Shown one piece after another: positions 1,813 through 14,370 of a stretch of DNA of 14,371 bases; position 1 is the first letter of the stretch; the number at the start of each line of letters is the position of its first letter. This DNA is from Martensiomyces pterosporus (Eukaryota; Kickxellomycota; Kickxellomycetes; Kickxellales; Kickxellaceae): positions 1,756-16,126 of the forward strand of contig MU604145.1 of the NCBI GenBank assembly GCA_025201845.1. The letters run 5' to 3'. The notes beneath the pieces are model-generated. The model ran no database searches. It had not been told where the DNA came from and was given only the letters and a program-made list of their open reading frames with translations. Made by a program: the position numbers and the translations under genes.

Positions 1813-4800
1813 ATGCCTGCTGAAAACGAATCGAATGCACCTGCTGCCCAGCAGCAAAATGCAGCGGCGGAAAGTCCTGCAGAGCCGAAATCCAAGAACC
1901 AGGAGAAGAACGAGGCCAAGCGCAAGGCCAAGATGGAAAAGTTCCTCGCAAAGCAGGCAGCAAAGGTAAGCTTGCTGGCAGAGCTGATCGCCACAGGTCG
2001 CACCCTCTACACAGCAGCAAACGCGCAGTTTGTCTTTGCTAATCATTACCTTCCGATTCACATACATGTAGGTGGCCGCTGCTGCTGGAAGCGACACCGG
2101 CGCAAACAAGGGAAAGAAGGAAAAGGAGGCCAAGCCCGCGGCGAAGCCCAAAGCCAAGCCTGCCTTTGTCAACACCGTTCCCAAGGGCGAGAAGAAAGAT
2201 ATGAGCCAGCCGATGGCTGACAGCTACGATCCGGTTGCTGTCGAGTCGGCCTGGTACGACTGGTGGGAGAAGCAGGGCTTCTTTGATCCAAACACGGAGG
2301 CCAACGGCGACATCAGCCCAAAAGGCAAGTTTGTCATGGCGACTCCCCCACCAAACGTCACGGGAAAGCTTCACATTGGCCATGCCCTGTTCATTTCCAT
2401 CCAGGACTCCATTGTGCGCTGGAACAGGATGCGCGGGCTGACTACCCTTTTTGTGCCTGGAGCCGACCACGCCGGCATCTCGACGCAGGCTGTTGTTGAG
2501 AAGCAGCTGTGGAAGCAGGAGAAGAAGACCCGGCACGACCTTGGCCGCGAAGCCTTTGTGGACAAGGTGTGGGAGTGGAAGAACGAGTACGGTCACACGA
2601 TCATGAGCCAGATCAGACGTCTCGGCGCCTCGTACGATTGGTCTCGCGAGCGGTTCACCCTTGACGACATGCTCTCGCGTGCGACCCGCGAAACATTTGT
2701 CCGTCTTTTCGATGACGGCATTGTCTATCGCTCGAGCCGCCTGGTCAACTGGTGCCACTACTTGAACACTGCGCTTTCCAACCTTGAGGTTGAGAGCATG
2801 GAGCTTCCTGGCCGTACTCTTATGAGCGTTCCCGGATACCCGGCCGACGAAAAGTTTGAGTTTGGTGTTCTGGTCCAGTTTGCTTATGAGGTCGAGGATA
2901 GCGACGAGCGCATCGTCGTTGCTACCACCCGTATTGAGACCATGCTGGGCGACACTGCGATCGCGATCCATCCTGAGGATAAGCGCTACACGCACCTGCA
3001 TGGCAAGTTTGTGCGCCATCCGTTTGTTGAGCGGCGTATCCCCATCATCACCGATGCCGAGGCGGTTGACATGAGCTTTGGTACTGGTGCAGTCAAGATC
3101 ACGCCCGCGCACGACCACAATGATTACAGTGTTGGCAAGAGGCACGGCCTGCCGTTCATTAACCTGCTCAACGAGGACGGCACCTACAACGACAATGCTG
3201 GGCCCTACAAGGGCATGCTCCGCTTCCGCGTTCGCAAGCAGATCGTCGAGGACCTCAAGGCCAAGGGTCTTTATGTGGACACTACGGAGAACCCAATGAG
3301 CGTTCCAATCTGCGAAAAGTCGGGCGATATCATCGAGCCTCTGATGAAGCCGCAGTGGTGGGTCAAATGCAAGGGACTTGCAGAGCCCGCAATGCAGGCT
3401 GTGCGCGACGGCCGTCTGGAGATCACACCAGTGACTTCGGAGAAGGAATGGTTCCGCTGGCTCGAGAACATCCAGGACTGGTGCGTGTCGCGCCAGCTGT
3501 GGTGGGGACACCGCATTCCAGCCTACTTTGTGCGCATCCCTGGCCAGGACAACGACTCGTGCGACGGCAAATACTGGGTTGTCGGCCACAGCGAGGCCGA
3601 GGCGAGGAAGCGCGCCGAAGAAAAGTTCCCGGGTGTCGAGTTCACTCTGGAGCAAGACCCGGATGTGCTGGACACGTGGTTCTCGTCCGGTCTGTGGCCG
3701 TTCGCCGTGATGGGCTGGCCCGAGAACACCGAGGACCTGAAGAAGTACTACCCAACGTCCTTGCTCGAGACTGGATGGGACATTCTGTTCTTCTGGGTTG
3801 CGCGCATGGTTATGCTTGGCATGTATCTCACAGGCGAGGTTCCCTTCAAGAAGGTGTTCTGCCACGCCATGGTCCGCGATGCGCAGGGCCGCAAGATGTC
3901 CAAGAGCCTTGGGAACGTCATTGACCCCATCGACGTCATCGAGGGCATCAGCCTTGAGGAGCTCCATGCCAAGCTTGAGAGCGGCAACCTCGACCCGCGC
4001 GAGGTCAAAAAGGCAAAGGTGGGCCAGACCAAGGACTTCCCCGACGGCATCCCCGAGTGCGGGTCCGATGCGCTGCGGTTCACTCTCTGCGCTTACACCT
4101 CTGCTGGGCGCGACGTCAACCTCAACATCCTGCGTGTCGATGGCTACCGCAAGTTCTGCAACAAGCTGTGGAACGCAACTCGCTTTGCGCTTATGAAGCT
4201 CGGCGACGACTTTGTCCCCCGTGCCGAGGCAAAGCTCGACGGCCAAGAGTCGCTCGCTGAGCGCTGGATCCTCCACAAGCTCAACATTGCGGCTCGCGAC
4301 GTCAACGCAGCCCTTGCGGATATGAACTTTATGGCTGCGACCACCGCTGCATACAGCTTCTGGCTGTACGACCTCTGCGACGTGTACATCGAGTACATCA
4401 AGCCCATCACCGCGCCCGAGGCCGACGCCAACGCCCGTCGCTCGGCGCAGGAGACCCTGTTCACCTGCCTTGACCAGGGAATGAAGCTTCTGCACCCCTT
4501 CATGCCGTTTGTCACCGAGGAGCTGTGGCAGCGTCTCCCGCGCCGCGCCAGCGAGACCAGCCCCTCGATCTCCCTCACCCCCTTCCCTGAGCCACGCGAC
4601 GATTATGAGAGCAGCCAGGCGGAGCGCGACTTTGACCTCGTCATGTCTATTGTCAAGGCTGGCCGTGCCCTTGCATCGGACTACAATGTCCTGTCAAAGT
4701 CGACGTTCTACATCGGCAATGCCAGCGAGGCAAGCTACTCGCTGACTTCCTCTCAGACCGACGGCATCTGCACCCTGATCAAGGGCTGCATGGACGTTGT

Positions 4801-5116
4801 TGCCTTGAAGCCCGGCGAGGCTGCTCCTGCTGGCTGCGCTGTCAACTCGATCAGCGACGAGGTCACCATCCACCTTCTTGTCCGCGGAAGAGTTGATATT
4901 GACCAGGAGGTCAAGAAGATCGAAAAGAAGCTTGCCAAGACCACCAACCTGAAGGAGGGGCTTGCTGCAAAGACCCAGGCCCCTGACTACGAGGAGCACG
5001 TTCCTGAAGAGGTCCGCGAGGCCAACAGCTCAAAGATCAGCAACTACGAGGCTGAGATTGAGGTTCTGCGCCAGGCCATCGAGACCTTCCTCACCCTCAA
5101 GGGCGCCGACGAGTAA
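1813..5116 (+). CDS. VAS1: Valyl-tRNA synthetase, cytosolic form, two exons
   Basis: Charges tRNA-Val with valine (class I aminoacyl-tRNA synthetase, EC 6.1.1.9). Coding exons are 1813-1965 and 2072-5116, joined in phase 0, giving 1065 residues, close to the roughly 1,100 usual for fungal cytosolic ValRS. The N-terminus (residues 1-90) is a Lys/Ala-rich extension typical of eukaryotes. The ATP-binding HIGH motif is at 152-155 (PPPNVTGKLHIGH) and KMSKS at 659-663. The CP1 editing domain lies between them, with ATTRIETMLGDTA from about 335 and GTGAVKITPAHDHND. DTWFSSGLWPF begins at 585. The anticodon-binding helical domain starts near 781 (ERWILHKLN), and a charged coiled-coil arm occupies about 992-1065. 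The start at 1813 is supported by an in-frame TGA at 1780-1782 and by the TATA box 154 bp upstream. No mitochondrial presequence is encoded in this frame. Confidence 0.97.
1966..2071 (+). other. Intron of the ValRS gene
   Basis: A 106-nt GT-AG intron. The donor is AAG|GTAAGC and the acceptor is TGTAG|GTGGCC. A branch-point-like TGCTAATC lies near 2036-2043, about 30 nt before the acceptor. It splits codons 51 and 52 in phase 0, joining the N-terminal Lys-rich extension encoded by both exons. Without splicing, the first-exon frame runs into unrelated sequence and stops near 2220. Confidence 0.9.
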
Positions 5117-5365: not shown

Positions 5366-6788
5366 ACCATGGGCGCCGTCTGCTGCCGCTTGCGTCATCC
5401 ATGCGTCTGCTGCTGGGGCTGGCCGCGTCGTTGGCACTAAACGCATCTGCAGGAGTGGTCGCGCCTGTCTCTCCTTGAAATTGCGTGCTAGAGGCTGCCT
5501 GGCGGTCTGGGTGTGGGCTGCCTGGCAGCAAGGAGCCAATGGATCTGGTAATCTCCCTTACAGATGGAAGTGGGTGGGTGCTGGCGACGGGTGTGTTTGC
5601 GCTGCTCGTGTCAGAGCCCCCCGGCGGTCGCCTAAATGGCGATGTGCTGGCGGCAGGCACGCATGGCTGAGTCTGGCTGATCTCGGCATCTCTCATCATG
5701 CTCGGCGGAGCGGGGGGTGCTGTGTGCGCTGGAGCCGACGCTGGGGCTGCCTGGCTGGACAGCGGCCGTGGAATTCGATGCGGGGTGCTGTCTTGGTAGT
5801 ACGGCGGTGGTTGTGGCGGCTTTGTGTGTGCTGGAGGCTGCTTTGGGGGCAGGCTTTGGTGTGGTACAAGGTGCTCTCGTCGCATATGGCCGTGCTGCAG
5901 CGCTGTTGTGTGGTGGCGAATGTGTGGGTGATGGCTGCTAGAGCCTTGCGGCAAGTGGCCTGAAGAGGCAGAGGGGGCAGCGGGAAAGTGCTGGTGGTGT
6001 GCTGGCAGCTGCGGCGAGACAGTGGTGTGCGGTGCTGCTGTGGAGGAGGAGAGGAGGTGAAAGGGGCGGTCGTGGCTCTGTGAGTACTTGGAGTGGTCCA
6101 CACGCGACGCGTAAGAGTGCCTGGTGTCGTAGGGAAACTGGCTGCGATGGCGGAGGTGGCTGCTGGCCTCCATGTCTTGTGGTGGTTGCTGTGGTAGGCT
6201 CAGCGATTCCAAGGGCACAACAACACCCGCAATGGGTGTTGTCGGGATTGTAGGCGAAAAGGCTGTGGACACTGCGGACGATGGAGACGGAGATATGGAC
6301 GAGCTTGACGCCAGGCGGCTGCGCAGTGCCATGTTTTCGGCATGCACCTCACGCAACCGCGCTTGCAGCTCGTAGTTTGCCTTTTGGAGATCCAGATAGG
6401 CAGCCTCCAGCTTGTTGTATTGCCGCGCCTTTTCCTCCAGGTTGGCAACGTATTTTTCCCTCCTTAGTCTGAACGCACGCTGAGCCGCCCGGTTCTGGGC
6501 TGCGCGCTTGGAGCTATTGATGCTCCGCCGCTTAGCGAGCGAGTCGCTGGCTGTGTGGGTGCTGCTATCTTTGGCGAAATCAATTCCAGACGACGTGATG
6601 TCTTGGTGGCTGCCGTCTGCAGGAGGCATGCCTTGATTGGGCAGCGTGGCGGTGGAGGATGGAGCTGTGGCAGCAGCGTTTGCGACAGCGGGAGACAGAG
6701 ACTGAGAAGCGCGCGCCAGAATGTTTTGAATGCTTGAGGCTGCCATGCCTTGCTGGTGAGAAGAGGTGTACCCATTAGGACAGTCCAT
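5364..6788 (-). CDS. bZIP transcription factor, fungal Yap/Pap1-like
   Basis: A predicted nuclear DNA-binding regulator of 474 residues. The basic region (about 86-110) carries NRAAQRAFRLRR, matching the N-x-x-A-Q-x-A-F-R-x-R signature that separates fungal AP-1-like Yap/Pap1 factors from GCN4-type bZIPs. The zipper follows with d-position residues L127, L134, L141, V148 and L155, and a-positions L117, Y124, Y131, N138, L145, N152 and L159. The N-terminus is Ser/Ala/Thr-rich. The C-terminal 300 residues are low-complexity, rich in His, Pro, Ser and Gln. It has almost no cysteine, so the redox-sensing cysteine-rich domains of Yap1/Pap1 are absent. The ATG at 6788 is the only Met after an in-frame TGA about 16 codons upstream. 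No intron is needed. The target genes cannot be told from the sequence. Confidence 0.88.
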
Positions 6789-7190
6789 ATCTTGCTGTTC
6801 GCCCGCCTGCTCCAGATGCAGTATATGGCCCCACGCTCAAAAGACACGCCGTGTTTCCAGAATCAAGAGGGGAGGAGGTGTGCTGGGCTGCGCGTGTGTA
6901 TATGCAGGCTGATCGTGCAGCCTAGTGCGAGGGGCGAGAGCGTGCACTCTAGTGGCGAATGGAAAGGCAGCAGCAGAGGAAAAGAGTCAGTATATACACG
7001 GGGCGGCAGAATTGGCGGGTATGTGGGTGCTACAGAGAAGGGCCAGCACAGCAGAGTTGAGAGGAGAGGGAAAAGCAAAAGGGGGAAAATAGTGAGCCAA
7101 GGCAGATATACAAGTGAGGAAAGAAGCATTGTGAGCATGGATAGAGCGTGTGCGGTCCTACACCACTCCCTCAGATGATGCTTGGCCGGT
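6789..7190 (-). promoter_or_regulatory. Upstream region and probable leader of the bZIP gene
   Basis: Read on the bZIP sense strand, this region is strongly pyrimidine-rich, a common property of fungal promoters and 5' leaders. A TATATA lies at about 6991-6996, some 200 bp upstream of the ATG. The many open frames here consist of Leu/Pro/Ser-rich peptides caused by that composition and are not supported as genes. Confidence 0.35.
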
Positions 7191-10811: not shown

Positions 10812-10976
10812 AACACTCGGCACACGCACACGACTATACCAAGGAGACGGACTTTCAGCAACAGCCAGCCCGCGCACCCACCTTCACTCCCAGCTACTGC
10901 TTTTTATATATTTCCTGCCCATCCTCCAGCCGTTTCAGGCGAACCACAAAAGGAGCTGCAGCTTTAGAGACGTAGA

Positions 10977-13019
10977 ATGGTATCCGTTGGGATGCCCTTT
11001 AAACGGAATGGTGCTCCCAAGACGCCGCTATCCCCGCCAACGAGCTTCGCCTCACTGGGGACCAGACACTCGTGCTCGACTCCACAGACAGCCACAGATG
11101 GACCTAGCGCTTCTGCTGCTCCGGCTCCTGCTGCAAGTGTATTAACAGCCGGCCCCAAAGACAGTGGCAGCGCAGGCGATGTGGGCGATGGCGACCCAGG
11201 GACAATGTGGTACGGCACACCTGTCTTTGACATAGGGCATTGGTACGCTGAGGGCGGGCTGGACTTGGTGCATGCAAAGCACGCAGAGCTGCACGAAACA
11301 GTGGAGGCTCTGATCATCGTGTGCTCTAGCAATGAGCCCGACTGGCACTGGCGTAGCCTAGCGCTTGGATGGCCAAGCGTCACAGTAATTGATATCGAGT
11401 ACGACGTGTGCAGCGTAGAGTCCGACCCAAGAGCAGTCCAGTGGCTCCGCATGGTTCAGGACCGGTCGTTTTTCCCTTGTGCGCGCATGTACAGGCTAAC
11501 GACGCGCTGGGCTGGGTGCACCGAGGTATTTGAGCATCCAGTTGATGGAAGCAGCATCGGCAGCGGGCGTGTGGAGCGACTGTCGCTGCTGGATCGTCTG
11601 CCAGTGCACATTCTCGGCTCGGAATCCGAGGTCCTCTTCTACAAGTACCGTATACTGTTTCTTGTCGGCGTGTCATTTGAAATGGGCGAGCTTGCAAAGA
11701 CTAGCCAGGGTGCGCTGTCCATGTATACGTACATCATGTACCTGCTAAAAACGGACGTTTTTGCGCCCAGTGTCCTGGAGCTCACCAACGCACAGCCCCA
11801 CCACATGCAGACGATCCTCAGCACTATCAACAAGAACGAGCAAAAGCTCGACTACGCGAACATGCGCACCGCTACAGGGACCGCAGCGCTGCAGTCCTCG
11901 CTCAGGCGGCTGCACTTCGACATGCACAACATGGCCGAAGGGCGCCATGGAATCCCGTTTTGCGCCGCACATTTCCCGCAGCTGGAGTCGCTGACTGTGC
12001 GGCACACGCCGGACTTTAAGGGTGGAAAGAGCTCGCTGATGAGCCTGGGTGTGCTGTTTAGCCTCCCGTGGAGCCGCCTTGTCGAGCTCCAAATCCCATT
12101 CATCTCTGACGAGTACACCAAAGTACTCTGCGACAAGTGTCCTAGCCTGCAGCACCTCACTGTTCGCCCGGAACCTCGCTACGAGAGGTGGTCGGCGTAC
12201 TCGCAGCCTTTCGCCCCAGAATCCCTTCGCAAGCTGGCATGCCAGTGGCCCAACATGCGCCAGCTGGCAGTAAGCTATGCATTCCGCCAGCCCTTGCAGA
12301 GCCAGGAGACGGCGCATCCATATTTTGGCGGGCCCCGTCTGTCACTCAGCCTTCACAGAGTGGGAAGTCGATCGACTAAAGGCGGAGGCAGCAGCAGCAG
12401 CATCGCCGCCAAATCCCCTAGAACCAGCACCACGCCGAATGCCAAGCTTGCCATCCCTGGGCCAATGTCGCTTGACTCATTCCTGCTCCAGCCCAAAAAT
12501 ATGACCTTGAGAGTCCTTTGCGCGCCTTACTTGCAGCTCCCATTTTCATCAGCGATGGCGCTGCTGGAGACTGCCCCACAGCTGCGGATTCTCGAGTTCA
12601 CACCAACTTTAAGGCGCCCCGAGCCCGCATCATTGAGCATTGCCGCGTCGCTACGTAAGCGGTCGAATGCACCTACCGCGGCGGCGCCAGAAGTCGAATT
12701 TGGCGACTCCAGCGTCGTTTACCGGCTGAAAGGAATGAAGCACCCTCTGGAGAACATGATTCTGCACGATGCCTGCTCGGTGGAATACGCCCAGAGAGGC
12801 TTCGTACAGGTGATGAACTCGTTCGCAAGACTCGAGGCGGTTACATTCGTTGCCATCAAGACACTCGACTTTCAGGTCCTTACTGGCCTGTCGAGCTCTT
12901 TAGCCAAGCAAAACGCAAGGTTCGCCATCGAGGTTGACGACCAGTCGCAGAACCACAACACATGCATTGACTTTACAAACAGCTGGGAAAAGGCCGGCAA
13001 TTTAATGTGGAGTCAGTGA
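10977..13019 (+). CDS. Leucine-rich-repeat-like protein of unknown function
   Basis: An intact single-exon gene for 680 residues. The start is supported by an in-frame TAG at 10965-10967, four codons upstream of the ATG. Residues 1-75 are Ser/Ala/Pro/Thr-rich and probably disordered. About 76-300 form an ordered region with no motif I recognise (starting at MWYGTPVFDIGHWY). From about 309 to the end, phrases of leucine-rich or RNI-like repeats recur: LRRLHFDM, FPQLESLTV, CPSLQHLTV, MRQLAVSY, APQLRILEF, LEAVTFV. A low-complexity insert with GGGSSSS is near 469-476. Fungal proteins with this build are often F-box/LRR substrate receptors of SCF ubiquitin ligases, but no F-box is visible at the N-terminus, so that role is not claimed. 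No signal peptide or membrane segment is obvious. It converges on the Fanzor gene 306 bp away. Confidence 0.85.
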   Translation: MVSVGMPFKRNGAPKTPLSPPTSFASLGTRHSCSTPQTATDGPSASAAPAPAASVLTAGPKDSGSAGDVGDGDPGTMWYGTPVFDIGHWYAEGGLDLVHAKHAELHETVEALIIVCSSNEPDWHWRSLALGWPSVTVIDIEYDVCSVESDPRAVQWLRMVQDRSFFPCARMYRLTTRWAGCTEVFEHPVDGSSIGSGRVERLSLLDRLPVHILGSESEVLFYKYRILFLVGVSFEMGELAKTSQGALSMYTYIMYLLKTDVFAPSVLELTNAQPHHMQTILSTINKNEQKLDYANMRTATGTAALQSSLRRLHFDMHNMAEGRHGIPFCAAHFPQLESLTVRHTPDFKGGKSSLMSLGVLFSLPWSRLVELQIPFISDEYTKVLCDKCPSLQHLTVRPEPRYERWSAYSQPFAPESLRKLACQWPNMRQLAVSYAFRQPLQSQETAHPYFGGPRLSLSLHRVGSRSTKGGGSSSSIAAKSPRTSTTPNAKLAIPGPMSLDSFLLQPKNMTLRVLCAPYLQLPFSSAMALLETAPQLRILEFTPTLRRPEPASLSIAASLRKRSNAPTAAAPEVEFGDSSVVYRLKGMKHPLENMILHDACSVEYAQRGFVQVMNSFARLEAVTFVAIKTLDFQVLTGLSSSLAKQNARFAIEVDDQSQNHNTCIDFTNSWEKAGNLMWSQ

Positions 13020-13114
13020 CAGCAGCACCGCATTAGCATTTCATTTCTGCTTTCCTTTTTCTCCCTCCATTGTCAAATACTGTGCAAATGAAAATGTGTT
13101 AAGAAAAAGCGGGT

Positions 13115-13247
13115 TTTGCGTCAATGCGGGTGTGGTTTGCAGTGGCTGCACATCGAATTTGCGCCGCGATGGAAGTGCGGTTTGCGTTTGGCGTGGCCGC
13201 AGTGTTTGCGTCGGTTGGTCGCTGTTTGCATCGGCAGCAGACAGGGG
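13115..13247 (+). repeat. Degenerate ~22-bp periodic array of TTTGC words
   Basis: TTTGC starts at 13115, 13136, 13158, 13181, 13205 and 13225, at intervals of 21, 22, 23, 24 and 20 bp. Bases after each word are often G, T, C or G-rich (GTC, GTT, ATCGG), but units are otherwise diverged. It lies 3' of the Fanzor frame on the minus strand, where the word reads GCAAA, and 3' of the LRR-like gene on the plus strand. Confidence 0.5.
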
Positions 13248-13296
13248 AGAGAAAACACAGAGACACAGTCGAGTATTGCCCCGAAGGCATCTTGGT

Positions 13297-13319
13297 GAGA
13301 TGTCGATATTCCACATCTC
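13297..13319 (-). other. Hairpin immediately 3' of the Fanzor stop codon
   Basis: GAGATGT (13297-13303) and ACATCTC (13313-13319) form a perfect 7-bp stem with a 9-nt loop. It begins six bases after the Fanzor TAA (13326-13328 on the minus strand). In TnpB and Fanzor loci the guide RNA often overlaps or follows the 3' end of the protein gene, so this could be part of it, or just a UTR stem. Confidence 0.4.
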
Positions 13320-13325
13320 GGACAG

Positions 13326-14273
13326 TTATTGTTGATGCTGTTTCTTGGTCGGGCCCTTGCGCTGGCGCTTCGCAGGGGGCTGCTGCGGCTGCGGCTGCTC
13401 CTGCTCCTGCTGTCCATCCGTGGTCTGGACAGGCGGCCTCCCACGTCTGAGCCGCTCAGGGCGCTCACGATTCTTGCGGATTCCGCTGAGGATATGTCTG
13501 AAATTCAAAACGGCAGCGAGATCCCTGTTCCACAGGCGCCAGCACGGCAACGACTCCAAACACCTGCTGGCCTTGGACTCCAAACACTTTTCGTTTGTGC
13601 ACTTGAGGAGTCCATGGCAGGTGACATTTGGCTTTTTCTTGATCATGTATGGCCGTGGGTTGCGCACTGTCTTGAAAGTCTTGAGGGCGCCAGTCTCGCA
13701 GGAGGGGCAGATCTTGGACGTCTTGAACTCGTCGATCAGATACACCGTGAAGCCGTGGCGCTGGAGCATCTCGCGTAGTCCTTTGCCCCGGATGGGCTCG
13801 TGGTAACGCACCATGGGTGCCGACCAATTCCCGATGACAAGAACAGCATCCTTGCCGAATTTCTCATGAAGGCTCTGCACCAGCTGCTCGTCCGCCTGCT
13901 GTTGATTGATGTGCGCCGAGAGGCGGAGCTTCCGATGAACAGGATAATCCGGAGTGGGTTCGCCATTGGAAATTGTAGACACCCCGCTGGCCTTGTATGG
14001 TGTTGTCGCATGCGTTGTCATTGTCCCCGAATAGAATGTGCTAAGAATTGGCCAGACAGCAGCCCGAGTCTCGACATATTTGCGATACTTGACAGGATCC
14101 ATGGTGCTGCAGCGCACCTTTGTGAGTTGATCCTCTGCTGCGCGAACATCTGGCGACCCATCCTTTAGCTCCTCACACAGCTTATGATAATGTGTCGATT
14201 TCGCGTCCATCGCCTTTTGATTCCGCGTATAGCAAAATAAAATGGGGTTATCTGCCGTGCTGTTCTCCGCCAT
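13326..14273 (-). CDS. Fanzor (eukaryotic TnpB-like RNA-guided endonuclease), C-terminal half
   Basis: A 315-residue frame matching the RuvC half of Fanzor, the eukaryotic relative of IS200/IS605 TnpB that cuts DNA using a guide RNA made from its own locus. The RuvC-II strand reads VLVIGNWS (144-151), with Gly148 where TnpB has its catalytic Glu. IDEFKTS (180-186) holds the alternative Glu182 of the rearranged Fanzor site. A zinc-ribbon follows with C189, C192, C219 (or C225) and C230. RuvC-III is WNRDLAAVLNF with Asp251. The tail (about 285-315) is Gln-rich and ends in AKRQRKGPTKK, a likely nuclear localisation signal. Fanzors usually have 500-800 residues, so the N-terminal half is missing here. 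This frame extends without a Met to a stop at 14352-14354. RuvC-I is not found in frame. It is either 5'-truncated or frame-shifted, or its first exons lie beyond the window. Confidence 0.88.
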   Translation of the reverse strand: MAENSTADNPILFCYTRNQKAMDAKSTHYHKLCEELKDGSPDVRAAEDQLTKVRCSTMDPVKYRKYVETRAAVWPILSTFYSGTMTTHATTPYKASGVSTISNGEPTPDYPVHRKLRLSAHINQQQADEQLVQSLHEKFGKDAVLVIGNWSAPMVRYHEPIRGKGLREMLQRHGFTVYLIDEFKTSKICPSCETGALKTFKTVRNPRPYMIKKKPNVTCHGLLKCTNEKCLESKASRCLESLPCWRLWNRDLAAVLNFRHILSGIRKNRERPERLRRGRPPVQTTDGQQEQEQPQPQQPPAKRQRKGPTKKQHQQ

Positions 14274-14370
14274 GCAAAAGTGCAGGCATGTGTGCAGGCT
14301 TCCAGCCGATGGCCCTGAGCGGGCACTTGACGGAAGTGCCCGACTTTCGCTTCATAAAGAGAGAGAGAAC
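14248..14370 (-). pseudogene. Overlapping frame at window edge, possible frame-shifted RuvC-I of the Fanzor
   Basis: A second minus-strand frame is open from the window edge to a TAA at 14248-14250, with an ATG at 14355. It contains KCPLRAIGWKPAHM. In Fanzor and TnpB, RuvC-I is an I-G-x-D-P-G motif, and it should lie directly before the residues that start the main frame. The IGWKPA here aligns with that pattern but has Lys where the catalytic Asp belongs. A one-base shift somewhere in about 14274-14310 would connect the two frames. The match is short and could be chance. Confidence 0.35.
14320..14342. other. 9-bp perfect hairpin near the Fanzor 5' side
   Basis: CGGGCACTT (14320-14328) and AAGTGCCCG (14334-14342) pair perfectly around a 5-nt loop. 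It lies within the overlap of the two frames at the window edge. It may be a structural or recombination scar, a subterminal repeat or chance; a stem of this size is expected about once by chance in a window this long. Confidence 0.4.

Follow-up and report, generated by a model that had tools for sequence, protein, structure and literature searches.

Fanzors are the eukaryotic relatives of bacterial RNA-guided DNA cutters, and a Fanzor-like open frame at the right end of the locus analyzed here raises the question of whether this fungal genome encodes a working nuclease of that kind. The window, the whole stretch of 14,371 nucleotides that was analyzed, corresponds to positions 1756 to 16126 of contig C199 in an assembly of 17.4 Mb and 216 contigs. 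A sequence-only reading had placed a Fanzor-family nuclease at 13326-14273 and assumed that its N-terminal half lay off the right end of the window. Our analysis points with good confidence to a different answer: a Fanzor1-bearing transposable element is present here as a dead copy with an internal deletion, and it belongs to family A, one of two such families in the genome.

To establish descent, the minus-strand frame was compared with known proteins. The frame comprises 319 codons and a stop codon (13328-13326) and represents the C-terminal part of a Fanzor1 gene (13326-14285, minus strand), holding the RuvC-II region, the TNB/zinc ribbon, RuvC-III, and a basic tail. The motifs quoted by the sequence-only reading, VLVIGNWS, IDEFKTSKICPSC, CHGLLKCTNEKC, and WNRDLAAVLNF, all occur in this frame, and the basic tail it described is present as PPAKRQRKGPTKK. 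The lower end of its span also stands; the upper end, however, is merely an internal Met at 14273, and homology to the C-terminal half reaches 14285, where it starts at LHFCMAENS. A phmmer search of PDB sequences returned Parasitella parasitica Fanzor1 (PpFz1) as the best match (E=1e-55), together with Spizellomyces punctatus Fanzor1 (SpuFz1, E=1.2e-25), the protein of the SPu-1 element and a member of the same family as the window copy; Guillardia theta Fanzor1 reached an E value of only 0.25. At E≤1e-3, 110 protein matches were found (best 4.2e-90), and the organisms named among them are all zygomycete-type fungi, some rows carrying no organism. A search of a phage collection with the feature gave no match. 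That the feature is a Fanzor1 by descent is confirmed, and the claim of a Fanzor family member in a fungal genome holds.

The residues kept by the window copy were read from alignment A2, which has 38 rows (the window copy and 37 of 157 relatives). The Fanzor-type RuvC-II glutamate (E-alt, residue 186, 13728-13730) is Glu in 37 of the 38 rows, the zinc ribbon cysteines C193, C196, C229, and C234 (13584-13709) occupy columns with Cys in 38, 38, 37, and 31 rows, respectively, and the RuvC-III aspartate of NRDLAA (residue 255, 13521-13523) is Asp in 34; the window copy keeps every one of these minus-strand residues. Part of the Fanzor/TnpB motif, given as [TS][TS]-X-X-[C4 zinc finger]-X(5,50)-RD in PMC3627910, is found here as T189 S190, the four cysteines, and R254 D255, the last pair standing 19 residues past the final zinc Cys. 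According to PMC10711439, the RuvC-II glutamate of Fanzors precedes the zinc finger by six residues, in contrast to about 50 in TnpB/Cas12, and the window copy has the Fanzor spacing, with six residues between E-alt and the first zinc Cys (E186-FKTSKI-C193).

Profile and structure comparisons, both proposed in the sequence-only reading, were also carried out. The profile check gave a divided result: phmmer linked the frame to Fanzors in the PDB, but the Pfam TNB profile PF07282 scored 23.7-24.1 bits, below its cut-off of 26.3, which is a curated library threshold and not a family definition. This profile is insensitive here because all five relatives scanned miss the cut-off as well (four score below it and one has no match). 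The check for a RuvC/TNB fold came out in favor. An AlphaFold2 model built on window positions 13329-14285 (mean pLDDT 80.8, pTM 0.67) gave seven Foldseek matches in the PDB at E≤1e-3, all of them Fanzors (entries for PpFz1, SpuFz1, and GtFz1); the TM-scores were moderate, at 0.43-0.53 by query length. Bacterial TnpB and Cas12 distantly share their architecture with Fanzors, and Cas12 entries rank behind the Fanzors in the same search, at E values of 0.08 and more. By sequence and by fold, PpFz1 (PDB 9cf0-9cf3) is the best solved relative of the window copy and resembles it in the E-alt spacing, the zinc ribbon, and the NRD motif. It differs in that the window copy is without RuvC-I and the parts preceding it. 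In addition, about 106 PpFz1 residues stand opposite 22 window residues in the pairwise alignment, a stretch that is probably its RuvC insertion (FRI).

The fate of the N-terminal half can be followed within the window itself. A remnant of a Fanzor N-terminus, 25 codons long, lies on the minus strand at 14281-14355, with its start codon at 14355-14353 and in a frame other than that of the C-terminal part; these 75 nt (14355-14281) translate as MKRKSGTSVKCPLRAIGWKPAHMPA, and the frame opened by the start codon ends after 35 aa. The remnant was scored on the N-terminal 80 residues of 43 relatives (≥500 aa, Met start), and none of 300 shuffles equaled its best or mean score. The matches are short, at 13-20 residues per relative, the best being to P0150 (residues 20-36), P0066 (23-42), and P0079 (13-28). 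In a whole-protein comparison, 23 of the best 25 listed matches fell within the first 42 residues, and those to P0151 and P0048 lay elsewhere in the protein. An approximate internal-deletion junction was placed at 14281-14295, as P0079 matches the window at residues 10-31 and resumes at 356; the missing stretch corresponds to about residues 32-355 in P0079 numbering and includes the RuvC-I DPG motif. Between the two parts lie about 324 residues in P0079 and about 300 in P0066, and relative to these proteins the window copy is short of about 300-320 residues, which by the published domain order would be REC and WED. The RuvC-I Asp occupies column 700 of A2 (D in 29 of 38 rows, a gap in 8, S in 1); the window copy has a gap there, and its first homologous C-terminal residue is in column 706. 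No continuous open reading frame joins its C-terminal part to an N-terminal REC/WED part. Long relatives such as P0115 and P0150 retain the N-terminus as well as the residues that the window copy has lost, and P0115 has the DPG.

The window copy has been deleted internally, with a change of frame, and lacks a complete D-E-D site. Because the missing residues include the RuvC-I aspartate, it cannot be a working nuclease. An intact relative would act as an RNA-guided endonuclease; it would bind a guide RNA made from sequence around the gene's 3' end and cut matching DNA through the D-E-D RuvC site. In the window copy, the last 319 codons remain, as do the start codon and about 25 codons of the N-terminus, but the two parts are in different frames and no nuclease is encoded. 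It persists as a relic, possibly mobilizable in trans; its mobility, like the cause of the deletion, we infer.

The feature is a member of a multicopy element. At least 20 Fanzor1-derived fragments are present in the genome and fall into two families, A and B, with 47-50% protein identity between them. A protein query located at least six places and 3'-end DNA queries more, with at least four copies of family A (on C199, C63, C5, and C78) and at least 16 places for family B; four further family B rows were discounted as a hairpin matching itself. The closest relatives of family A are Dispira (P0001) and Piptocephalis (P0002) proteins, at 52% identity, and those of family B are the same Dispira protein and one from Coemansia sp. 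RSA 1933 (P0005), at 70-71%. Contig ends adjoin 18 of the 20 copies, and the internal ones (C92:35044-35252 and C198:6160-6283) are short, 5'-truncated pieces. The simplest explanation of this placement is that the interior of a multicopy element collapsed into short contigs absent from the assembly searched. A subtelomeric location was considered because the copies lie at contig ends and point their 3' ends inward. It was rejected, as the assembly contains no (TTAGGG)3 and repeat collapse suffices; the inward orientation is evidence neither way because the 3' end was the search query.

The same placement bears on the best surviving alternative, an assembly chimera, in which reads from several near-identical copies would have been merged where the contig ends, giving a false deletion at a locus that carries a full-length Fanzor. 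We consider this unlikely, although it deserves weight. The frequency of contig-end copies and the size of the shortest of 12 contigs examined (C216, 11,077 bp) are as expected after collapse and size filtering, and the junction falls within a repeat family only 70-90 nt from the contig end, which is also the window end (C199 position 16126). However, a contig that continues for so short a distance past the junction is, we infer, what one would see where unique sequence gives way to a collapsed repeat. Furthermore, the 104-nt 5' end of the window copy has no second occurrence in the genome searched, and P0007, a protein spanning much of the missing stretch, found no other piece of that stretch in the genome.

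A second alternative is a host-domesticated C-terminal fragment (TNB and half of RuvC) that binds RNA or DNA, for example as a competitor of intact copies for guide RNA. The frame is open from the internal Met at 14273, and the comparison of C199 with C63 over 121 codons gave 6 synonymous and 10 nonsynonymous differences (dN 0.032, dS 0.094, dN/dS about 0.35). With all 319 codons free of stops and divergence this low, decay would be recent or slight. The other pairs compared, however, range in dN/dS from 0.24 to 0.98, so that any constraint may be older than the deletion or may not exist, and the fragment would be without WED and REC, the domains by which solved Fanzors grip the guide (PMC11423790). 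Domestication is very improbable. Equally hard to sustain is an intact nuclease with its N-terminal half just beyond the window, as the sequence-only reading implied. In its favor, the C-terminal half is well conserved and open for 319 codons; against it, the contig ends at the window end, Fanzor N-terminal codons in a different frame directly precede the C-terminal part, and the RuvC-I DPG is absent.

Several observations on the assembly accompany these copies. A run of N (C198:1-1249) lies directly upstream of the Fanzor copy at that contig start, and another occurs shortly before C181:5418. Two pairs of contig ends have a Fanzor end plus flanking DNA in common: L029 (start of C155) and L013 (end of C181), at 99.5% over 426 nt, and L032 (end of C82) and L037 (end of C86), at 95% over 260 nt. 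Each pair could represent haplotypes or duplications.

The dead element copy still has a 3' region from which a guide RNA may be predicted. According to PMC10432273, the SpuFz1 guide RNA comes from sequence past the stop codon of the gene, and a 75-nt scaffold precedes its guide of 14-15 nt; in PMC11423790, SL1 has seven base pairs in three solved Fanzor1 complexes, and in PpFz1 it is followed by an SL2 of only 4 bp before the guide. Folding and copy comparison suggest that the 3' part of an omegaRNA scaffold lies at 13277-13328 (minus strand), beginning at the stop codon, with a 7-bp SL1 (13319-13297) and a 5-bp SL2 (13289-13277), stem-loops much like those of PpFz1. The 52-nt fold of 13328-13277 has a z of -2.18, with 5 of 200 shuffles equally stable; an 89-nt fold retains SL1 and is without SL2 (z -1.77, 7 of 200 shuffles). 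Among C199, C5, and C78 this stretch shows 0-1 differences in 51-52 nt, versus 12 of 194, 12 of 174, and 12 of 174 between these copies beyond it, as raw counts. Family B folds are stronger (C126 z -2.94, C181 z -3.42), the terminal hairpin being formed in the C126 fold and absent from that of C181, and CAAGATGC plus a hairpin at the scaffold end are common to both families. An Rfam search of the region gave no match at E≤1. The stem-loop region past the stop codon thus resembles a Fanzor1 guide-RNA scaffold, and we predict it as a candidate with moderate confidence.

If this prediction is right, a 15-nt guide, its length taken from SpuFz1, would occupy 13262-13276 (minus strand). Where the scaffold stops, the following sequence is unrelated in C63 and C126, interrupted by a 50-nt insert in C78, and different after 2 nt in C92; these changes support, without proving, a scaffold end at this point. 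Against it, the outer element end lies about 200 nt further on, and a constant GTGRGTGTGAA stands at the guide position in 12 of 16 copies of family B (C3b and 11 of the 14 whose scaffold motif is complete). Kickxellalean Fanzor1 elements could have the guide position inside the element, so that most copies carry one fixed guide, whereas C63, C126, C78 (the insert), and nearly C92 change sequence at the scaffold end, as if an outer, TA-flanked transposon end coexisted with a right end further in whose guide can be exchanged; we regard this as a doubtful idea with little probability. A clustering of breakpoints at the scaffold end was rejected, its small probability coming from seven hand-chosen junctions, as further family B junctions (BLAST ends) were found at about -30, +13, +58, +61, +87, +90, and +140 nt, and that of C107 is readable as 0 to +7.

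The family B hairpin (CTGCTTC...GAAGCAG) carries a 7-nt loop that is inverted in four copies (C126, C55, C92, and C46), with TACATGG versus CCATGTA or CTATGTA, as a flip of the whole hairpin (L010, L026, L031, and L036 versus the other family B copies). The variable SL1 loop of this family was discarded as a conservation signal, since the reverse complement arises by one inversion and not by seven substitutions. In the long copies of family B (e.g., C198:1656-1718, L071), the stretch that follows the hairpin is constant; it starts with GTGAGT and later has CTGCAG, and by eye these resemble intron ends past the stop codon.

The sequence-only reading expected that the boundaries and guide RNA could be mapped, and this was realized for the right (3') boundary, while for the guide RNA a candidate region could be outlined; the left boundary was not found. 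The right subterminal region (13080-13276, minus strand) contains CGCAAAC-type motifs, and the homology of C199, C5, and C78 stops at about 13080, at ACAGTA, so that the element ends with CTGT beside a TA flank (13078-13079). The far right ends of family B read CAGTA in C55, C3 (start), and C171 (start), and CAGTC in C161. PMC3627910 describes TA flanks for SPu-1, as putative target-site duplications, and for Mariner-type Fanzor elements. In SPu-1, the guide lies beyond the right-end repeat, whereas here about 200 nt of element separate the predicted scaffold from the outer terminus. Neither a left end nor a target-site duplication was found in the assembly searched. A terminal-pattern search for the left end gave 13 matches, versus 2 with a reversed-pattern control; four of the 13 are the known ends of C5, C78, C3, and C171, and the remainder were dismissed as left ends, none being homologous to the element end. 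Searches for DDE_3 and DDE_1 transposases found none in the assembly, which appears to be without its short contigs, and the DDE_1 control likewise found none in any of 14 genomes. CGCAAAC-rich right-end pieces with no Fanzor detected adjoining them occur at C181:5418-5544, C28:98388-98477, and C171:78-113, and are possibly non-autonomous relatives or solo ends.

This kind of element is already known, and the window copy is an ordinary member of it. The analysis adds two Fanzor1 families in this Coemansia-like fungus, whose 3' ends provide a first map of candidate guide-RNA scaffolds; among the papers searched, none covered both Fanzor and Coemansia. A 'hallmark series' of motifs can stem from a dead Fanzor copy because the conserved C-terminal half outlasts the rest. 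The Fanzor1-like relatives in Coemansia, Dispira, Piptocephalis, and Mucorales are uncharacterized, the long ones having 707-784 aa, and for usable Fanzors in this group the full-length Coemansia relatives, such as P0112 (729 aa), would be a better starting point.

The element lies beside host genes, as had been noted. A neighboring ORF of 683 aa (10968-13019, plus strand), with no Pfam match at 1e-3, converges on the element and stops about 60 bp before its terminus. Further away, a valyl-tRNA synthetase ORF (2072-5113) has, among the best 120 of 7,995 matches, 72-81% identity to Coemansia proteins and 78% to a Kickxella alabastrina protein, which places the host among fungi of the Kickxellales type, near Coemansia. 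An ORF at 5367-6836 (minus strand) matches a bZIP transcription factor, with 27.7 bits against a Pfam cut-off of 27.6.
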